From Pelagibacteraceae bacterium (GTDB taxonomy: Bacteria > Pseudomonadota > Alphaproteobacteria > HIMB59 > GCA-002718135), in NCBI GenBank assembly GCA_017639935.1, contig JAGFWP010000044.1, positions 1-47,522 on the forward strand: a stretch of DNA of 47,522 nucleotides, in the 5' to 3' direction. Shown here one piece after another: positions 39,453 through 47,305 of the stretch. Below the pieces are notes generated by a model that was not told the origin of the DNA, did no database searches, and saw only the letters and a list, made by a program, of their open reading frames with translations. How positions within the stretch are numbered: the first letter of the stretch is position 1; every line of letters starts with the position of its first letter. Both the position numbers and the translations under genes were made by a program.

Positions 39453-40559
39453 ATGAAAAAAAACTTTAAACGACGTGACTTTCTTAAGAAAGCCGGCATA
39501 GCTGGTGCTGCAGCAACAGCTGTATCAACTTTCCCAGCTCCAGCTATAGCTGCTGATAGAGTTGACATTGCCATTGTTACTACTTGGCCAAGAGATTTTC
39601 CAGGTTTAGGAACTGGAGCTCAAAGATTTGGTCAAAGACTAACTGACATGAGTGATGGAAGATTTAACGTAGAATATTTTGCAGCTGGCGAGCGTGTTGG
39701 AGCTTTTGATTCTTTTGATGAAGTTGCTTCAGGTAATGCTCAAATGTATCATGCTGCCGATTATTATTGGAAAGGCAAACATCCTGGTTGGGCTTATTTC
39801 ACTGCTGTTCCTTTTGGATTAACATACACAGAGTGTAACGCTTGGATAAGATTCGGTGGTGGTCAAGCTTTATGGGATGAATTAGCTGGAGAATACGGCC
39901 TTAAAAACTTCTTATGTGGTAACACTGGAGTTCAAATGGGCGGATGGTTTAATAAAGAAATCAATTCCGCTAGTGATCTAAAAGGTCTTAAAATGCGTAT
40001 ACCTGGACTTGGTGGAGACGTGATGGCTAAATTAGGAGCATCACCTGTTTCTTTGCCTGGTGGTCAAATTTATGAAAATTTAGTGTCAGGTGCTATTGAT
40101 GCAACTGAATGGGTAGGTCCATGGAATGATGAAATTATGAAATTTCATGAAGCAGCTAAATATTATTATTTTCCAGGAATGCATGAACCAGGTTCTGCTC
40201 TTGCAGCTGGTTGTAACAAATCATGGTTAACTAGTTTGTCGGGTTCAGATCAAGTGATGATTGAAGCTGCTGCAGCTATGGAAAATGATGTAATGATGTC
40301 AGAATACAATGCTAAAAATGGTGCGGCCTTATCTAGATTACTTAATGAACAAGGTGTTGTCTTAAAAGAATTTAGTGATGATGTTTATGATTCATTTGGT
40401 GAAGCAGCAGACGAAGTGTATGCGGAAGTTGTAGAACACAGTGATCTTGCAAACCGTATCCACCAAAGTATGGTGAAAAGTCGTTCTGATGTGGGAGGTT
40501 GGTTAAACCTTGGAGATGCTGCATATTCAAAACAACGTAATAGAGTTCTTGGACTCTAA
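39453..40559 (+). CDS. TRAP transporter substrate-binding protein, DctP/TakP family, Tat-exported
   Basis: A 368-residue periplasmic binding protein. Its leader FKRRDFLKKAGIAGAAATA is a twin-arginine signal with a cleavage site near APAIAA, so it is exported folded. The mature part begins DRVDIAIVTTWPRDFPGLGTGAQRFGQ and has LKGLKMRIPGLGGDVMAKLGASPVSLPGGQIYENLVSGAIDATEWVGPWND-type motifs split across the domains, typical of the TakP-like (alpha-keto acid / mannitol-chloroaromatic) TRAP group. The GC3 and amino-acid use are milder than in neighbours, consistent with high expression. The substrate is not determinable; 2-oxo acids are the best-characterised ligands in this group. A hairpin follows the stop. 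Confidence 0.9.
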   Translation: MKKNFKRRDFLKKAGIAGAAATAVSTFPAPAIAADRVDIAIVTTWPRDFPGLGTGAQRFGQRLTDMSDGRFNVEYFAAGERVGAFDSFDEVASGNAQMYHAADYYWKGKHPGWAYFTAVPFGLTYTECNAWIRFGGGQALWDELAGEYGLKNFLCGNTGVQMGGWFNKEINSASDLKGLKMRIPGLGGDVMAKLGASPVSLPGGQIYENLVSGAIDATEWVGPWNDEIMKFHEAAKYYYFPGMHEPGSALAAGCNKSWLTSLSGSDQVMIEAAAAMENDVMMSEYNAKNGAALSRLLNEQGVVLKEFSDDVYDSFGEAADEVYAEVVEHSDLANRIHQSMVKSRSDVGGWLNLGDAAYSKQRNRVLGL

Positions 40560-40644: not shown

Positions 40645-41670
40645 ATGAATTTTAATATTGCAAATCAACTGCGTTTTTTTGGTATATCTATTGTTGCGTT
40701 AACTTTTATCTTTTTAACAAATAATTTTTTAAATTTTTGGGCTGATTGGCCTGGTGTTGATATTTTTTTTGCAAACATTGGCTGGTTCGGCTTTAATAAG
40801 TTGCAAAATCCACTTGATGGATATTCTTTAGTTCAAGCATGGATTCAATTACTTAGTTATATTTTAATAATTTTTTTATCTTTTCTTTACGTTTCTTTCT
40901 CATCGAATAAAAAACTAATTCAGGATTCAGAAACTCTATCTTCTCTATCAGCATATATCATTCGAGCTTCATTTTGGATTGTTCTGTTAGTGGGTATTGC
41001 TGATATGGTTTTATCATTTTTAAGAGTAGAAGATTATTTAATTCCTCTTTTTGGCAAAGATTTTGGCATGGCCTTAGGACGACCAAATTTTAGGGGGACT
41101 TATGTTCATTTTCCGATAATGCTTATTTCTCTAATTATAGCTTACTTTACTAGAACACTAGGATTTCTATGGCTATCAGTTCTTGTTGTTATAGCCGAAT
41201 TTCAAATTGTTCTAGCTAGATTTATATTTTCATACGAACAAACTTTTATGGGTGATTTAGTTCGCTTTTGGTATGGATCTCTGTTTCTCTTTGCTAGCTC
41301 TTACGCATTAATTCATGAAGGGCATGTTCGTGTGGATGTTATTTATACAAAATTTACTAAACGTTCTAAAGCTTGGTCTAATGCTCTTGGCTCATTACTT
41401 TTAGGAGTACCAATATGTTGGACTGTTTTACTTAGAGGAATGTGGTGCAAACAATGTATAATTAATGCTCCTCTTACAAATTTTGAAACTTCAATGAGCG
41501 GTTATGGGATGTATGTAAAATATCTCATGGCTGGTTTTCTTGCCATTTATGCTTTAACTATGTTAATTCAATTTGTAAGTTATTTTTTAAGCAATGCTTC
41601 TGTATTACAAGAAGAATTACAAGTTAGCGATTTAAAATCAGCTAATACAATCAAATCATTTGTGGAATAA
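40645..41670 (+). CDS. TRAP transporter small permease (DctQ-like), N-terminally extended
   Basis: A 341-residue membrane protein. The DctQ-like part is residues ~175-320 (FLWLSVLVVIAEFQIVLARFI, LFLFASSYALIHEGHVRVDVIY, with helices in pairs). The first ~170 residues add about four more hydrophobic segments (WAWIQLLSYILIIFLSFLYV-type stretches and WIVLLVGIADMVLSFLRVEDYLIP), making it about twice the usual 160-190-residue DctQ. This enlarged form occurs with the TakP/mannitol-type TRAP group. It lies 86 bases after the binding protein, across the hairpin, and two bases before the large permease. Confidence 0.86.
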   Translation: MNFNIANQLRFFGISIVALTFIFLTNNFLNFWADWPGVDIFFANIGWFGFNKLQNPLDGYSLVQAWIQLLSYILIIFLSFLYVSFSSNKKLIQDSETLSSLSAYIIRASFWIVLLVGIADMVLSFLRVEDYLIPLFGKDFGMALGRPNFRGTYVHFPIMLISLIIAYFTRTLGFLWLSVLVVIAEFQIVLARFIFSYEQTFMGDLVRFWYGSLFLFASSYALIHEGHVRVDVIYTKFTKRSKAWSNALGSLLLGVPICWTVLLRGMWCKQCIINAPLTNFETSMSGYGMYVKYLMAGFLAIYALTMLIQFVSYFLSNASVLQEELQVSDLKSANTIKSFVE

Positions 41671-41672
41671 TA

Positions 41673-44330
41673 ATGGAAACACTTTTTCTTATTATTTTAA
41701 TTTTAACTATGATGGTAGCTTTATCATCCGGTTTTCCTGTGGCCTTCTCTCTACCTGGTTCAGCTGTTCTTACAATTCTTTTAGCCGCATTATGTGGTTA
41801 TTTATTTGCAGGCAATCCAAGTGAATATTTTATACAAGACGGACCAATACAATGGCTTACAGCTGGTATTACTAACTTTAGAGGAGTTTATTGGGAAGTT
41901 GAACGCGATACATTAATTGCAATACCATTATTTATTTTTATGGGAATTATGTTGCAGCGTTCTAAAATTGCAGAAGATCTTCTTGTTACAATGGGGCAAT
42001 TGTTTGGTCCAATACCTGGAGGACTTGGAATATCAGTAATATTTGTGGGAGCGTTACTGGCTGCGACAACTGGTATCGTTGGAGCTACAGTAGTTGCTAT
42101 GGGTTTAATTTCTTTACCGGCAATGCTTAAACATAAATATGATAAATCTCTTGCAAGTGGGATAGTATGTTCTTCAGGAACTCTTGGTCAAATTATTCCC
42201 CCTTCAATTGTTCTGATTATACTTGCTGATCAGTTAGCTAGTGCTTCAGATGTAGCAAATACAACCAGACAAGTTGAATACAAACAATTTACAGGTGAAT
42301 TTAATATGCCTGGTGATTACGGAGTCGCATCAACTAGTGCTGGCGATATGTTTCTTGGCGCTTTCTTTCCGGGCCTTGTTCTTGTTGGATTGTATATGGT
42401 TTATATTCTTTGTTATGCTCTAATAAAAAAAAATGTAGCTCCTCCTGTTCATTATGAAGGAGAATATGATAGAAAATTTGCCTTTAAAGTATTTCTTTCT
42501 CTAGTGCCCCCCCTGACTCTTATATTTGTGGTGCTTGGTTCCATATTGCTTGGTATTGCTACAGTGAATCAAGCAGGAGCAATAGGTGCTGTTGGGGCTA
42601 CAATTATGGGTGGGTATCGCCTTCAAGCAGGAAGAAAACATGCTTACACACCTGCAATTATTGCCATAATATCTTTAGTTGCGCTTTATTTTCTTATTAA
42701 TTCATATGACTTAACAATTAAAAATATTGATAGTTCTGATGATGTTTTTGGAGTTACACTTGCTTCTATTGCTGTGTTTGCTCTTCTACTTTCAGTATTT
42801 TGGAGCTTTTGGAGAACTTTTAAAATAGAAAATACTCTGAAGGGAGTAGCTCTTGAAACATGTGTGACTACATCTATGGTATTTATCATCTTAGTTGGTG
42901 CAGCTATGCTAACAGCTGCTTTCAGGGGGTTTGGGGGTGAAGAATTAGTTACTGATTTTCTAACTGGATTACCTGGAGGTTTTTGGACTCAGTTTGTTGT
43001 TGTAATGGCTGTAATATTTGTTCTAGGTTTTTTCCTAGATTTTATTGAAATTGCTGTTGTAGTTGTACCTATCATTGCACCAATATTACTAGCAGAAACT
43101 GGGGCTAATGTTACTGCTGTTTGGTTAGGAGTAATGATTGGGGTTAATATGCAAACTTCTTTTTTAACTCCACCTTTTGGCTTTTCATTATTCTACCTAA
43201 GAGGAGTTGCCCCCTCTTCTGTTTCCACAATTCAAATTTGGAAAGGGGCAGTTGCATTCATTTTTTTACAATTAGTGGGATTATCAATAGTTGGTTATTA
43301 TCCTAAACTCGTTAACTATCTTCCAAATAGAACTTATCTGACATCGGAAGTTGCTCCACCGCCAATGAATCCAAGACTTCAAGAATGTGTGCAGGAATAT
43401 AAATTCAATTTATATGATTTAAATGAAACAAAAATAAAACAAAACATTAATGATATAAGTTCATTGGATTATAATTACTTGCCAAATGAAAAAAAAGAAT
43501 TTTTAAAAAACACATACTCTAAGGCTTTTTTAACCTTTGAATTAGTTCAGCATTTAAAAAATGAAACTAATGTTCTTAATGAATATAGCAAAGAATATAA
43601 ATCACTTCACAAATCTGTAAGAAAAATTCAAAAAAGAATATTGAAAATTGGAAATAATATAAAAGATTTAGAAAAGGAAATTAGAAATCTTGAAAGGGAG
43701 GAAAAAACTTTAAATATTGCAAGATTAAAAACCAAAATCATTGATCTTGAAAATGAAAAAACTTTAATTTCATCAAAGATACCTACTGTATGGAATGATT
43801 CACATGAGCAATATAAAGTTTTTGCTAGTAATAAAAAAAAGGCAGTAATAAAATACAGACGAAATGTTGATGAAGTTTATGAAAATATCCAAATTATTAA
43901 ATCTATAATTAATGACAGAGAAAAACTTAATGAAATTGAAAATGAGATCATTAACTTAAAACAAATTGTAATGGAAGAATCTAATGAAGAGACTATGTTA
44001 AAAATGAAATCATTAGAAAAAATTATCGATAAGATTGCTGGGGCCGACTTAATAAAAGAAAAAATTTCAAAATCTAGAAAAATACTAAAGAAAAATGATC
44101 CTAATATAAATAAAGTAATGAATTATTTAAATGAAGCTAATGATATTTATTTAAATGAAAAAGAATGGAGAGCGGTAGCTGAAAAAAAACTACTGCCACA
44201 ACTTGTTGTTTTTGATAATTCTATTAAAGATACAATTGGTCTTCGTTTACAAGAAAGATTAACCAAAGAACAAGCTAAATTCGTTGCAAGTTGTCGCTCT
44301 ATACATAGGGACATCTCTCTTAATTTTTAA
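41673..44330 (+). CDS. TRAP transporter large permease (DctM-like) with long C-terminal coiled-coil extension
   Basis: Residues ~1-555 are a DctM permease: SSGFPVAFSLPGSAVLTILLA, DTLIAIPLFIFMGIMLQRSKIAEDLL, GIVGATVVAMGLISLPAML, GTLGQIIPPSIVLIILAD and, near 500, FLTPPFGFSLFYLRGVAP. An insertion around residues 290-390 adds helices, as in the mannitol/chloroaromatic TRAP group. After YYPKLVNYLPNRTYL the protein continues for ~330 hydrophilic residues rich in K, E, I, L and N (KIQKRILKIGNNIKDLEKEI, LEREEKTLNIARLKTKIIDL), strongly predicted helical/coiled coil, ending in QERLTKEQAKFVASC. The reading frame is uninterrupted with ordinary codon use, so it is not an assembly artefact by eye. The tail's function is unknown. 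It ends four bases from the convergent bdhA. Confidence 0.9.
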   Translation: METLFLIILILTMMVALSSGFPVAFSLPGSAVLTILLAALCGYLFAGNPSEYFIQDGPIQWLTAGITNFRGVYWEVERDTLIAIPLFIFMGIMLQRSKIAEDLLVTMGQLFGPIPGGLGISVIFVGALLAATTGIVGATVVAMGLISLPAMLKHKYDKSLASGIVCSSGTLGQIIPPSIVLIILADQLASASDVANTTRQVEYKQFTGEFNMPGDYGVASTSAGDMFLGAFFPGLVLVGLYMVYILCYALIKKNVAPPVHYEGEYDRKFAFKVFLSLVPPLTLIFVVLGSILLGIATVNQAGAIGAVGATIMGGYRLQAGRKHAYTPAIIAIISLVALYFLINSYDLTIKNIDSSDDVFGVTLASIAVFALLLSVFWSFWRTFKIENTLKGVALETCVTTSMVFIILVGAAMLTAAFRGFGGEELVTDFLTGLPGGFWTQFVVVMAVIFVLGFFLDFIEIAVVVVPIIAPILLAETGANVTAVWLGVMIGVNMQTSFLTPPFGFSLFYLRGVAPSSVSTIQIWKGAVAFIFLQLVGLSIVGYYPKLVNYLPNRTYLTSEVAPPPMNPRLQECVQEYKFNLYDLNETKIKQNINDISSLDYNYLPNEKKEFLKNTYSKAFLTFELVQHLKNETNVLNEYSKEYKSLHKSVRKIQKRILKIGNNIKDLEKEIRNLEREEKTLNIARLKTKIIDLENEKTLISSKIPTVWNDSHEQYKVFASNKKKAVIKYRRNVDEVYENIQIIKSIINDREKLNEIENEIINLKQIVMEESNEETMLKMKSLEKIIDKIAGADLIKEKISKSRKILKKNDPNINKVMNYLNEANDIYLNEKEWRAVAEKKLLPQLVVFDNSIKDTIGLRLQERLTKEQAKFVASCRSIHRDISLNF

Positions 44331-44334
44331 TTGT

Positions 44335-45114
44335 TTATTGGGAAGTCCAACCGCCATCAATGTTAATTGATGAGCCTGTAATATCTTTGGCTTCATCCGT
44401 GCATAAAAAATAAGCAAGTGCTGCTATATCACTGCCTTTTATAAAAGATAAATTTGGCTGTTTTTCTTTTAGTAAATTTAATTCCTCTTTTTTTCTGGAG
44501 GTCTTATTCTTTTTTACTCTTTGTTCAATTTGTCTGGATACCAGAGGTGTGTCCACCCAGCCCGGACATATGGCATTGCAAGTAATGGGTGAGGTAGCTG
44601 TCTCTAATGCTATAGTTTTAGTCAATCCAATCATTCCATGTTTTGATGCTACATATGCTGATTTGTTAACTGAGGCTACCAATCCATGTGTTGAAGCAAT
44701 ATTAATAATTCTTCCCCATTTATTTTTTCTCATTAAGGGGATAGCGTATTTACTTGTGTAAAAGCTGCTAGACAAATTAATAGAGATAACTTTCTCCCAC
44801 ATTTCTTCAGAGAAATTCTCTACCGAAGATAGATGTTGGATTCCCGCACAATTGATTAAGATATCTATTGATGAAAACTTTTTCTTTAATTGTTGAAATA
44901 AATTCTTAATTTGAGAAGTTTTTTCTAAATCAATTTTCTTATATAAAATTAAATTTTTTTTATTAATATCAGATAATTTTTTTGCAAAAGATTTATTGGG
45001 GAGTTTGTTGTCAACTATTATAACATTGTGATCTTTAATAAATAATTTGCAGATATTTAAACCTATGCCCCCAAGTCCTCCTGTTATAAGAACATTCTTA
45101 ACTTTCTTCATCAT
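44335..45114 (-). CDS. bdhA: 3-hydroxybutyrate dehydrogenase (SDR)
   Basis: A 259-residue NAD-dependent SDR. The cofactor motif TGGLGGIG is at residues 12-19, NCAGIQHLSSVENF in the middle, and the catalytic serine and Y-x3-K in NIASTHGLVAS and AYVASKHGMIGLTK (about 155). The stretch TCNAICPGWVDTPLVSRQIE and the ending NIDGGWTSQ are typical of bacterial D-3-hydroxybutyrate dehydrogenase, which makes acetoacetate. With AacS in the window it gives a route from 3-hydroxybutyrate to acetoacetyl-CoA. Its start overlaps the parC stop by 17 bases, so it may be translated from the parC message. Another SDR substrate is possible but less likely. Confidence 0.87.
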   Translation of the reverse strand: MMKKVKNVLITGGLGGIGLNICKLFIKDHNVIIVDNKLPNKSFAKKLSDINKKNLILYKKIDLEKTSQIKNLFQQLKKKFSSIDILINCAGIQHLSSVENFSEEMWEKVISINLSSSFYTSKYAIPLMRKNKWGRIINIASTHGLVASVNKSAYVASKHGMIGLTKTIALETATSPITCNAICPGWVDTPLVSRQIEQRVKKNKTSRKKEELNLLKEKQPNLSFIKGSDIAALAYFLCTDEAKDITGSSINIDGGWTSQ

Positions 45115-47305
45115 ATAACTTTAAATATTTATTGAATCTTTTGGGTACTTTTTTACCTACTTGGGATCTTTTGCCAATCCAAAAATCAATATCTGTCTCA
45201 TTACGCAATTGTGAACCTATCTTCCAGGTAATGCCGTCAGACAAATTAAAAGTTTGGATATCTGATAAAGATTCTCCTTTTTTGATTTTTTGTAATTGAA
45301 CCCCCCCTCCTCTTTTAAGAACAGGAAGATCTTTAGTCTTAAAAATTAACAACTTAGAATTTTTGGCAACACAGGCAATGTGAGTATTAATTTTATTTGT
45401 TATATTCAATAATTGATCACCCGATTTTAAGTTAAAAAGTTGTTTTCCTTTTTTTTGAGAGGTTTGAATTTCACTTAAATCAGCAATAAATCCTTTGCCA
45501 AATTTCGATGCCACAACACATTTAAGATCATCTTCATAGGGTAAAATACCAATAAGTTTTTCATTAGAACTTGATTCAACAAAAAATATAAAACTTTTTG
45601 GACTTGATTTCCCTGTAGGAAGAACATTTGGATCAATGGTATAGACTCGTCCGGAAGAGACAAATAATAATAATTTTTGATTTGATAGTATTTTTTTATA
45701 TGAAACAACATTATGAATGTTGTTGTTGATTTTTTCATCTTCTATATGATCTTTAAACGTTTTAAGAAAACCATCCTTAGTTAAAATGATTGTCATTTTT
45801 TCAACTTCATGAAATTCATCAATATTTACTTCAACATCTGTTATATTTTCTGAATTAATTTTGGTTCGCCTAGCAATTATTTTCTCATCAATTTCTTCAT
45901 TAATTTCTTTTAATTCATCAGTAATATGTTTTTCTAAAATATTTTTATTTTTGATCAGCTTATTTAGATAATTTAACTCCCCCTTAAGATCAGTTATTTC
46001 TTTCTTGGTTGATCTTTCATCCAGTTTTTTCAAAGAACCCAATCTCATATTTAATATGGCTTCGGCTTGAATTTCTGAAAGTTTATATTTTTTTATGATT
46101 TCTTTTTTTGGGTCATCCTTTTTTCTTATAATCTTAATTATCGCATCCAAATATTTATAGGCAATTAAATAACCATCCAATATTCTCAGTCTTTTAGATA
46201 TTTTTTCTTTATTAAAAAGTGACTTTCTCTTAATTGTTATCTGCCTGTAAGTAATAAAATTATATAGAATATCCTTTAATCCTAACTGTTTTGGCAAAAT
46301 TCCATTTTCTAAAACATTAAAATTACATGAATATCTTGTAGACAGATCTGATAGCTTAAAACATAGTTTAACTAATTTTTCAGCTTCAATATTTCTATTT
46401 CTGGGCTTTAAAATAATTCTTATTTGCTCATCAGATTCATCCAATACATCATCTAATGGTATTTTCTTATTGTTTATCAAATTTGCCAGTTGTTCAATTA
46501 ATCTCGCTTTATTGATTTGATAAGGAATTTCTGTAATAATTATTTGATACATACCATTCTTAAGATCCTCCTTTTTCCATCTTGATCTAACAGTAAATGA
46601 GCCTCTTCCATTTTTGTAAATCTCCTTTTTTTCAGAACTCGTCATCAATATTTCACCACCAGTCGGAAAATCAGGACCTTGAAAATCTTTCAATAAGTTT
46701 GATAGTGTAATAGATGGTTTTTTAATAAGTTTTATGAGTGCTTTATTAAGTTCTAATAAATTATGTGGTGGTATGTTGGTCGCCATTCCAACAGCAATTC
46801 CTGCGGCACCGTTTAAAAGTATATTGGGTAGTTTTGACGGCAGAACTACTGGTTCTAAATTTTGACCGTCATAGTTTTCTATAAAATCAACAGCATCTTC
46901 TTCAATGCCATCAAAAAAATAATTTGAGATTAAATCAAGTCTTGCTTCCGTGTATCTCATTGCTGCGGCATTATCACCATCTATATTTCCAAAATTTCCC
47001 TGACCTTCTATAAGGGGAGCTCTTGTAGAAAAATCTTGTGCCAATCTAACTAAGCTATCATAAATCGCCTGATCACCGTGAGGATGAAACTTTCCCATAA
47101 CATCACCAACTATTCGAGCTGATTTTTTAAAAGGAGAGCCATTATGTAATTTTAATTGATACATTGAATAAATTATTCTTCGATGAACAGGCTTTAAACC
47201 ATCACGGACATCCGGGAGAGAACGGGAAATAATTGTAGAAACAGCATAAGATAAGTATTTTTGAGCTAATATATCATCAACAAAGTATTGAACATTATTA
47301 GTCAT
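45098..47305 (-). CDS. parC: DNA topoisomerase IV subunit A
   Basis: A 735-residue type IIA topoisomerase subunit. The opening VDDILAQKYLSYAVSTIISRSLPDVRDGLKPVHRRII and the active-site tyrosine in AAAMRYTEARLDLI (about residue 120) are standard. The C-terminal part lacks a GyrA box (QRRGGKG) and instead has LKRGGGVQLQKIKKGES, which favours ParC over GyrA. It decatenates chromosomes with ParE, which is not in the window. An AAGGA ribosome site lies about 8 bases before ATG 47305. It overlaps the upstream partial gene by 8 bases and bdhA downstream by 17. Confidence 0.92.
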   Translation of the reverse strand: MTNNVQYFVDDILAQKYLSYAVSTIISRSLPDVRDGLKPVHRRIIYSMYQLKLHNGSPFKKSARIVGDVMGKFHPHGDQAIYDSLVRLAQDFSTRAPLIEGQGNFGNIDGDNAAAMRYTEARLDLISNYFFDGIEEDAVDFIENYDGQNLEPVVLPSKLPNILLNGAAGIAVGMATNIPPHNLLELNKALIKLIKKPSITLSNLLKDFQGPDFPTGGEILMTSSEKKEIYKNGRGSFTVRSRWKKEDLKNGMYQIIITEIPYQINKARLIEQLANLINNKKIPLDDVLDESDEQIRIILKPRNRNIEAEKLVKLCFKLSDLSTRYSCNFNVLENGILPKQLGLKDILYNFITYRQITIKRKSLFNKEKISKRLRILDGYLIAYKYLDAIIKIIRKKDDPKKEIIKKYKLSEIQAEAILNMRLGSLKKLDERSTKKEITDLKGELNYLNKLIKNKNILEKHITDELKEINEEIDEKIIARRTKINSENITDVEVNIDEFHEVEKMTIILTKDGFLKTFKDHIEDEKINNNIHNVVSYKKILSNQKLLLFVSSGRVYTIDPNVLPTGKSSPKSFIFFVESSSNEKLIGILPYEDDLKCVVASKFGKGFIADLSEIQTSQKKGKQLFNLKSGDQLLNITNKINTHIACVAKNSKLLIFKTKDLPVLKRGGGVQLQKIKKGESLSDIQTFNLSDGITWKIGSQLRNETDIDFWIGKRSQVGKKVPKRFNKYLKLYDEES

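Follow-up and report, generated by a model that had tools for sequence, protein, structure and literature searches.

A conserved C-terminal tail on a TRAP transporter permease, putatively a periplasmic helical arm, occurs together with an enlarged DctQ subunit

The large permease subunit DctM of TRAP transporters (TC 2.A.56) usually, although not necessarily, ends soon after its last membrane helix. A DctM protein encoded on contig JAGFWP010000044.1 of a Pelagibacteraceae bacterium, of which a stretch of 47,522 nucleotides was analyzed here as "the window," continues for another 332 residues, and the question is what this part of the protein may be for. The frame (positions 41673-44330, + strand) is open over 885 codons and directly follows dctP and dctQ, in this order, on the same strand (Table 1). 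Alignments to Pfam DctM and to solved TRAP permeases reached about residue 553, with residues 395 to 553 matching residues 456 to 613 of SiaT, a protein of 616 residues in total. The tail, which a first-pass annotation had put at about residues 555 to 885, lies at 554 to 885, outside both alignments. As had also been described, it is hydrophilic and rich in lysine and glutamate, with isoleucine, leucine, and asparagine likewise abundant and a calculated pI of about 9.2, and its frame ends just before a convergent gene, 4 bases from the end of the latter. A frameshift or assembly join near position 43350 was looked for and ruled out: a continuous frame of the same kind was present in 125 homologues. 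The full-length protein was encoded without a stop in 14 genomes of the same taxonomic family, so that the remark that close relatives may carry the tail was right but understated.

Table 1. Features of the DctPQM region in the window. "Evidence" gives the result on which each assignment is based; residue numbers are those of the respective protein.
Feature	Position	Strand	Evidence
DctP (P subunit), TakP-like solute-binding protein, 368 aa, twin-arginine (Tat) signal	39453..40559	+	Pfam DctP, 5e-50; TakP 2HZK, 7.5e-74
DctQ (Q subunit), 341 aa, twice the usual length	40645..41670	+	Pfam DctQ on residues 188-309
DctQ N-terminal extension, residues 1-172, four extra hydrophobic helices	40645..41160	+	Hydropathy, conservation; only alongside the M tail
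DctM permease core, residues 1-553	41673..43331	+	Pfam DctM (PF06808), 2e-65; model core similar to 7qha_B
Two extra membrane helices, residues 319-388	42627..42836	+	Alignment break at 321-388 against short (~460 aa) DctM; predicted helices 326-344 and 355-384
C-terminal tail, residues 554-885, putative periplasmic helical arm	43332..44327	+	Homologue conservation, AlphaFold2 model, cysteine pattern
Proximal base, residues 554-572 (PPPxNPRLQxC), conserved	43332..43388	+	Ends in invariant Cys572 (codon 43386-43388); Cys in 126/126 sequences
Long helices 605-675 and 679-700	43485..43772	+	AlphaFold2; heptad-like period in 605-675
IPxxW turn (703-707), conserved, and return helix 706-754	43773..43934	+	W707 in 126/126; AlphaFold2
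Distal base, residues 851-885 (GLRxQ...C.S.HRDISLxF), conserved	44223..44327	+	Invariant Cys874 (codon 44292-44294) in 125/126, the remaining one being a gap
Convergent neighbor, 3-hydroxybutyrate-dehydrogenase-like SDR; bounds the system, not part of it	44335..45114	-	NCBIfam NF009093, above its cut-off

Up to residue 553, the protein is a TRAP permease. The modeled core matched 7qha_B in Foldseek with a TM-score of 0.81 (by target), and the protein scored 261.4 bits with TIGR00786, slightly below the cut-off of 268.45. The M subunits of SiaQM (7QHA, 8THI, 7QE5) and IseQM (9PYM) share the fold and the conserved motifs of this core but stop a few residues past the last helix, and they possess neither the arm nor the insert at residues 319 to 388. 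This two-helix insert is an older, separate variation within the permease core. It is common to the TakP-type DctM proteins of 885 and of about 525 residues, the tailless latter showing no alignment break at this position, and is absent from those of about 460 residues.

The tail is predicted to be helical. A first AlphaFold2 model, based on 15 close sequences and with a poor core, was replaced by one from an alignment of 46 sequences, with a mean pLDDT of 81, a pTM of 0.73, and pLDDT values of about 80 to 95, mostly 85 to 95, in the tail. The predicted helices comprise residues 567-596, 605-675, 679-700, 706-747, 812-839, 841-851, and 865-875. In helix 605-675, conservation-averaged hydrophobicity repeated with a period of 3.44 (P < 0.001 against shuffled columns), and in helix 706-754, with one of 3.54 (P = 0.004). 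The long, coiled-coil-like helical extension assumed initially agrees with these results, the heptad-like runs being supported for these two helices only. Conservation is centered on the two ends of the tail, residues 554-572 and 851-885, with isolated invariant residues, such as R650, W707, W832, and R833, between them. The arm helices between the two ends vary, which would suit a spacer no less than a binding surface.

No known domain accounted for the tail. Pfam and NCBIfam contained no family above threshold for the tail, either alone or as a set of 42 diverse members, and the first, shallow model gave no significant match in a fold search. The profiles of Occludin_ELL, DivIC, SMC, and Rad50 matched weakly, inconsistently, and below their cut-offs, and these matches were judged to be generic coiled coil. 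The SMC and Rad50 arms, DivIC, and EzrA resemble the long helices of the tail weakly, by composition, but share with it no consistent family, matching domain order, or significant fold match. Coevolution within the tail (mean-field, effective depth of about 44) was uninformative; its pattern looked phylogenetic and was set aside. The possibility that the tail is a well-described domain of the whole TRAP family was considered as well; it turned out to be a constant part of one TRAP subclade and absent from the relatives.

On which side of the membrane is the tail located? The M subunit of SiaQM has 12 transmembrane segments with both termini outside, of which segments 10 to 12 belong to the transport (elevator) domain (PMC9971032). 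The start of the tail coincides with the end of the solved TRAP M proteins, and the insert at 319 to 388 adds two helices, so that the parity of the topology is kept. All 124 complete tails contain exactly two cysteine residues, at the positions of Cys572 and Cys874 and 280 to 312 residues apart; the number of cysteines in the core of the same homologues varies from 0 to 4. Such a pattern is that expected of a structural disulfide, and a Cys572-Cys874 bond probably joins the two ends of the tail. DsbA and DsbB are encoded in the genome. The C-out topology of TRAP M subunits, the start of the tail where the solved proteins end, the kept parity, and the invariant cysteine pair together indicate that the tail is likely periplasmic.

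A comparable tail was found in 125 homologues, nearly all with a total length of 880 to 896 residues, and none of these had lost it. The carriers belong to many alphaproteobacterial families, SAR11, SAR324, and some Gammaproteobacteria; those with names include many SAR11 single-cell genomes, SAR324, Magnetovibrio, Oceanospirillaceae, and an Osedax symbiont. The tail was always fused to the permease. Within the class of the window, 31 of 385 sampled genomes had the tail, each in a permease-containing open frame of 838 to 960 residues, and about 75 others had a similar permease ending near residue 555. Occurrence outside this class is sporadic, because convincing tails in a phylum-wide sample of 399 genomes were restricted to it. 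Two partial matches to the tail model, in other proteobacterial proteins (G547 and G846, E of about 1e-4), were read as coiled-coil chance. The tail was not seen as a separate gene, apart from pieces at contig edges and one degraded fragment, and it was not found in the viral contigs or the plasmids searched. The fragment (G018:C55:1878-2126, - strand) matches the last 83 residues of the tail, contains two in-frame stops, and resembles the remnant of a decayed second copy, the genome also encoding an intact tail. Another genome, G267, possesses two tailed permeases, on contigs G267:C23 and G267:C4, in open frames of 888 and 903 residues.

In the phylogenetic tree, the tailed permeases formed one clade (SH-aLRT of 100) on a long stem, placed inside the TakP-type (2-oxoacid) TRAP transporters, with relatives of about 525 residues that do not possess the tail. 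The tailed DctM of a record titled Candidatus Neomarinimicrobiota NP141 (L105) clustered with SAR11 sequences, and this 7-kb contig may have been mis-binned or transferred.

The enlarged DctQ subunit and the two-cysteine pattern are features beyond those given in the first-pass annotation. The DctQ domain begins only near residue 176 of 341. Of the tailed systems, 119 had a readable Q subunit, and each of these carried about 150 extra N-terminal residues with four more membrane helices; among them are one in which the extension sits on a broken Q frame (L097) and another of full length in which the start aligns weakly (L087). None of the 24 tailless systems with a readable Q had these residues. 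The extension matched no Pfam family. It was also considered as a duplicated DctQ, but hhalign detected no similarity to the DctQ half. Tailless alphaproteobacterial TakP-type TRAP systems, with an M subunit of about 525 residues and a Q subunit of about 190, are 43 to 47% identical in the M core, including the two-helix insert, but possess neither tail nor Q extension and are positioned outside the tailed clade. The tail of M and the additional four helices of Q are best read as one co-inherited module. Since the tailed permeases are a single clade, tail and Q extension may reflect one origin and joint retention instead of repeated gains, so that their link may represent a single historical event.

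The P subunit connects the system to TakPQM of Rhodobacter sphaeroides (TakP structures 2HZK and 2HZL), with TakP being similar along its length. All six TakP residues that bind pyruvate and the cation (PMC1839085), Y100, Q156, R177, E214, W215, and E240, are kept in DctP as Y105, Q161, R182, E219, W220, and E245. TakP is a helix-swapped dimer (PMC1839085), and DctP aligns up to TakP residue 352 before running to its own end, a range that spans the region of the C-terminal dimerization helix. With respect to TakPQM, which was compared through its P subunit, the system in the window has the 332-residue tail on M and about 150 extra residues on Q. Judged from its sequence, it is probably an importer of a small 2-oxo or 2-hydroxy acid together with a cation. 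The tailless systems with an M subunit of about 525 residues also have TakP-like binding proteins, 42 to 54% identical to DctP of the window; a dimeric binding protein therefore does not require the tail.

Of 80 named loci, 77 had P, Q, and M together, and in the remaining three only M and Q were seen. No conserved partner gene adjoining the operon was found across the loci, and most of them had no shared metabolic neighbors. At one SAR11 locus (L115:76-3676), the operon is directly preceded by aminotransferase-like, GlcD-like oxidase, and glyoxylate-reductase-like genes, in line with 2-oxo or 2-hydroxy acids and a possible clue to the substrate. A ParC-like gene (topoisomerase IV subunit A, named from sequence) is located near PQM in the window (45098-47305, - strand) and at three other alphaproteobacterial loci (L090:8701-10890, L158:831-3125, and L160:9409-11676), which suggests an old, vertically kept location.

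The architecture of this system, namely, one frame with its domain limits, the conservation and cysteine pattern, the linkage of M tail and Q extension, and a TakP-type P, can be read from the sequences and is well supported. What this architecture does we infer. It may well be, at a chance just short of even, that M arm and Q domain form a module that holds or orients a dimeric TakP-like binding protein on the transporter. Past its last membrane helix, the M chain would form a periplasmic helical arm, about 330 residues long, which would leave and return at one place. Its ends, residues 554-572 and 851-885, would form a platform at the membrane face that is closed by the Cys572-Cys874 disulfide, with the variable long helices pointing outward and the Q extension, putatively in contact with the arm, as part of the base. 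In this arrangement, the arm would directly follow the transport (elevator) domain and lie on the side at which the binding protein docks, and its length would suffice to extend along a P dimer. According to the model of HiSiaPQM, the C-terminal lobe of P docks on the moving elevator domain, and a TakP-type dimer can be accommodated in this model, the second protomer then pointing away from the membrane (PMC9352664). Because P docks on that transport domain, a disulfide-fixed base with a projecting arm would be well placed to hold the dimer.

Alternatively, the arm and the extra Q helices may be an oligomerization scaffold, with the arms of neighboring QM units pairing into a dimer or higher assembly. 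The heptad-like periodicity of the arm helices agrees with this explanation, a Q extension would alter the lateral face of the complex, and an arm variable in sequence but conserved in length suits self-association. Conservation, however, peaks at the base and not along the helices, closure by two cysteines suggests an intramolecular hairpin, and the solved TRAP QM units are reported to consist of one Q and one M (PMC9971032), which leaves oligomerization unlikely.

Two further explanations are both improbable, and about equally so. The arm could anchor or position the importer in the cell envelope, at the peptidoglycan or the outer membrane, for instance, under a porin. Helix 605-675 alone would span about 10 nm, and the periplasmic side, indicated by the TRAP topology (PMC9971032) and the tail cysteines, would be the right one; nevertheless, neither the tip nor the C terminus carries a peptidoglycan-binding or outer-membrane domain, the C terminus is part of the conserved base, and the operon has no conserved partner gene alongside. 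Tail and Q extension could instead mainly stabilize the folding or assembly of an unusually divergent permease and take no part in the handling of substrate or binding protein. This would be consistent with the long stem of the tailed permease core in the tree and with the strong conservation of the base compared with most other parts of the tail, but a long, outward arm of constant length exceeds the need for a structural patch, and loss of the arm was observed in 0 of 125 homologues. Cytoplasmic partners had been one option in the first-pass annotation. Recruitment of soluble partners or a regulator by a cytoplasmic tail, compatible with its lysine-rich, basic composition, is very improbable, since TRAP M subunits are N-out and C-out (PMC9971032) with the parity kept by the two extra helices, and the invariant pair of cysteines, two and no more in each complete tail, points to an oxidized periplasmic domain.

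TRAP importers are major systems for carboxylate uptake in the ocean, and the arm is present in many SAR11 and other marine genomes; a literature search, mostly of openly accessible papers, returned no account of such a tail or DctQ extension. If an arm holding the P dimer is the correct reading, this TRAP system would handle its binding protein by a new means, namely, a periplasmic arm that belongs to the membrane subunit. It is conceivable, but doubtful, that the systems with tail and Q extension are a class of TRAP importers of their own, in which the disulfide-closed arm keeps the P dimer captive, its protomers being emptied in turn without release. The advantage of dimeric TRAP binding proteins has been stated as unknown (PMC8276074), and captive dimers, if true, would give them a role. 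Deletion of the arm would offer a direct test of why certain binding proteins of TRAP systems are dimers.
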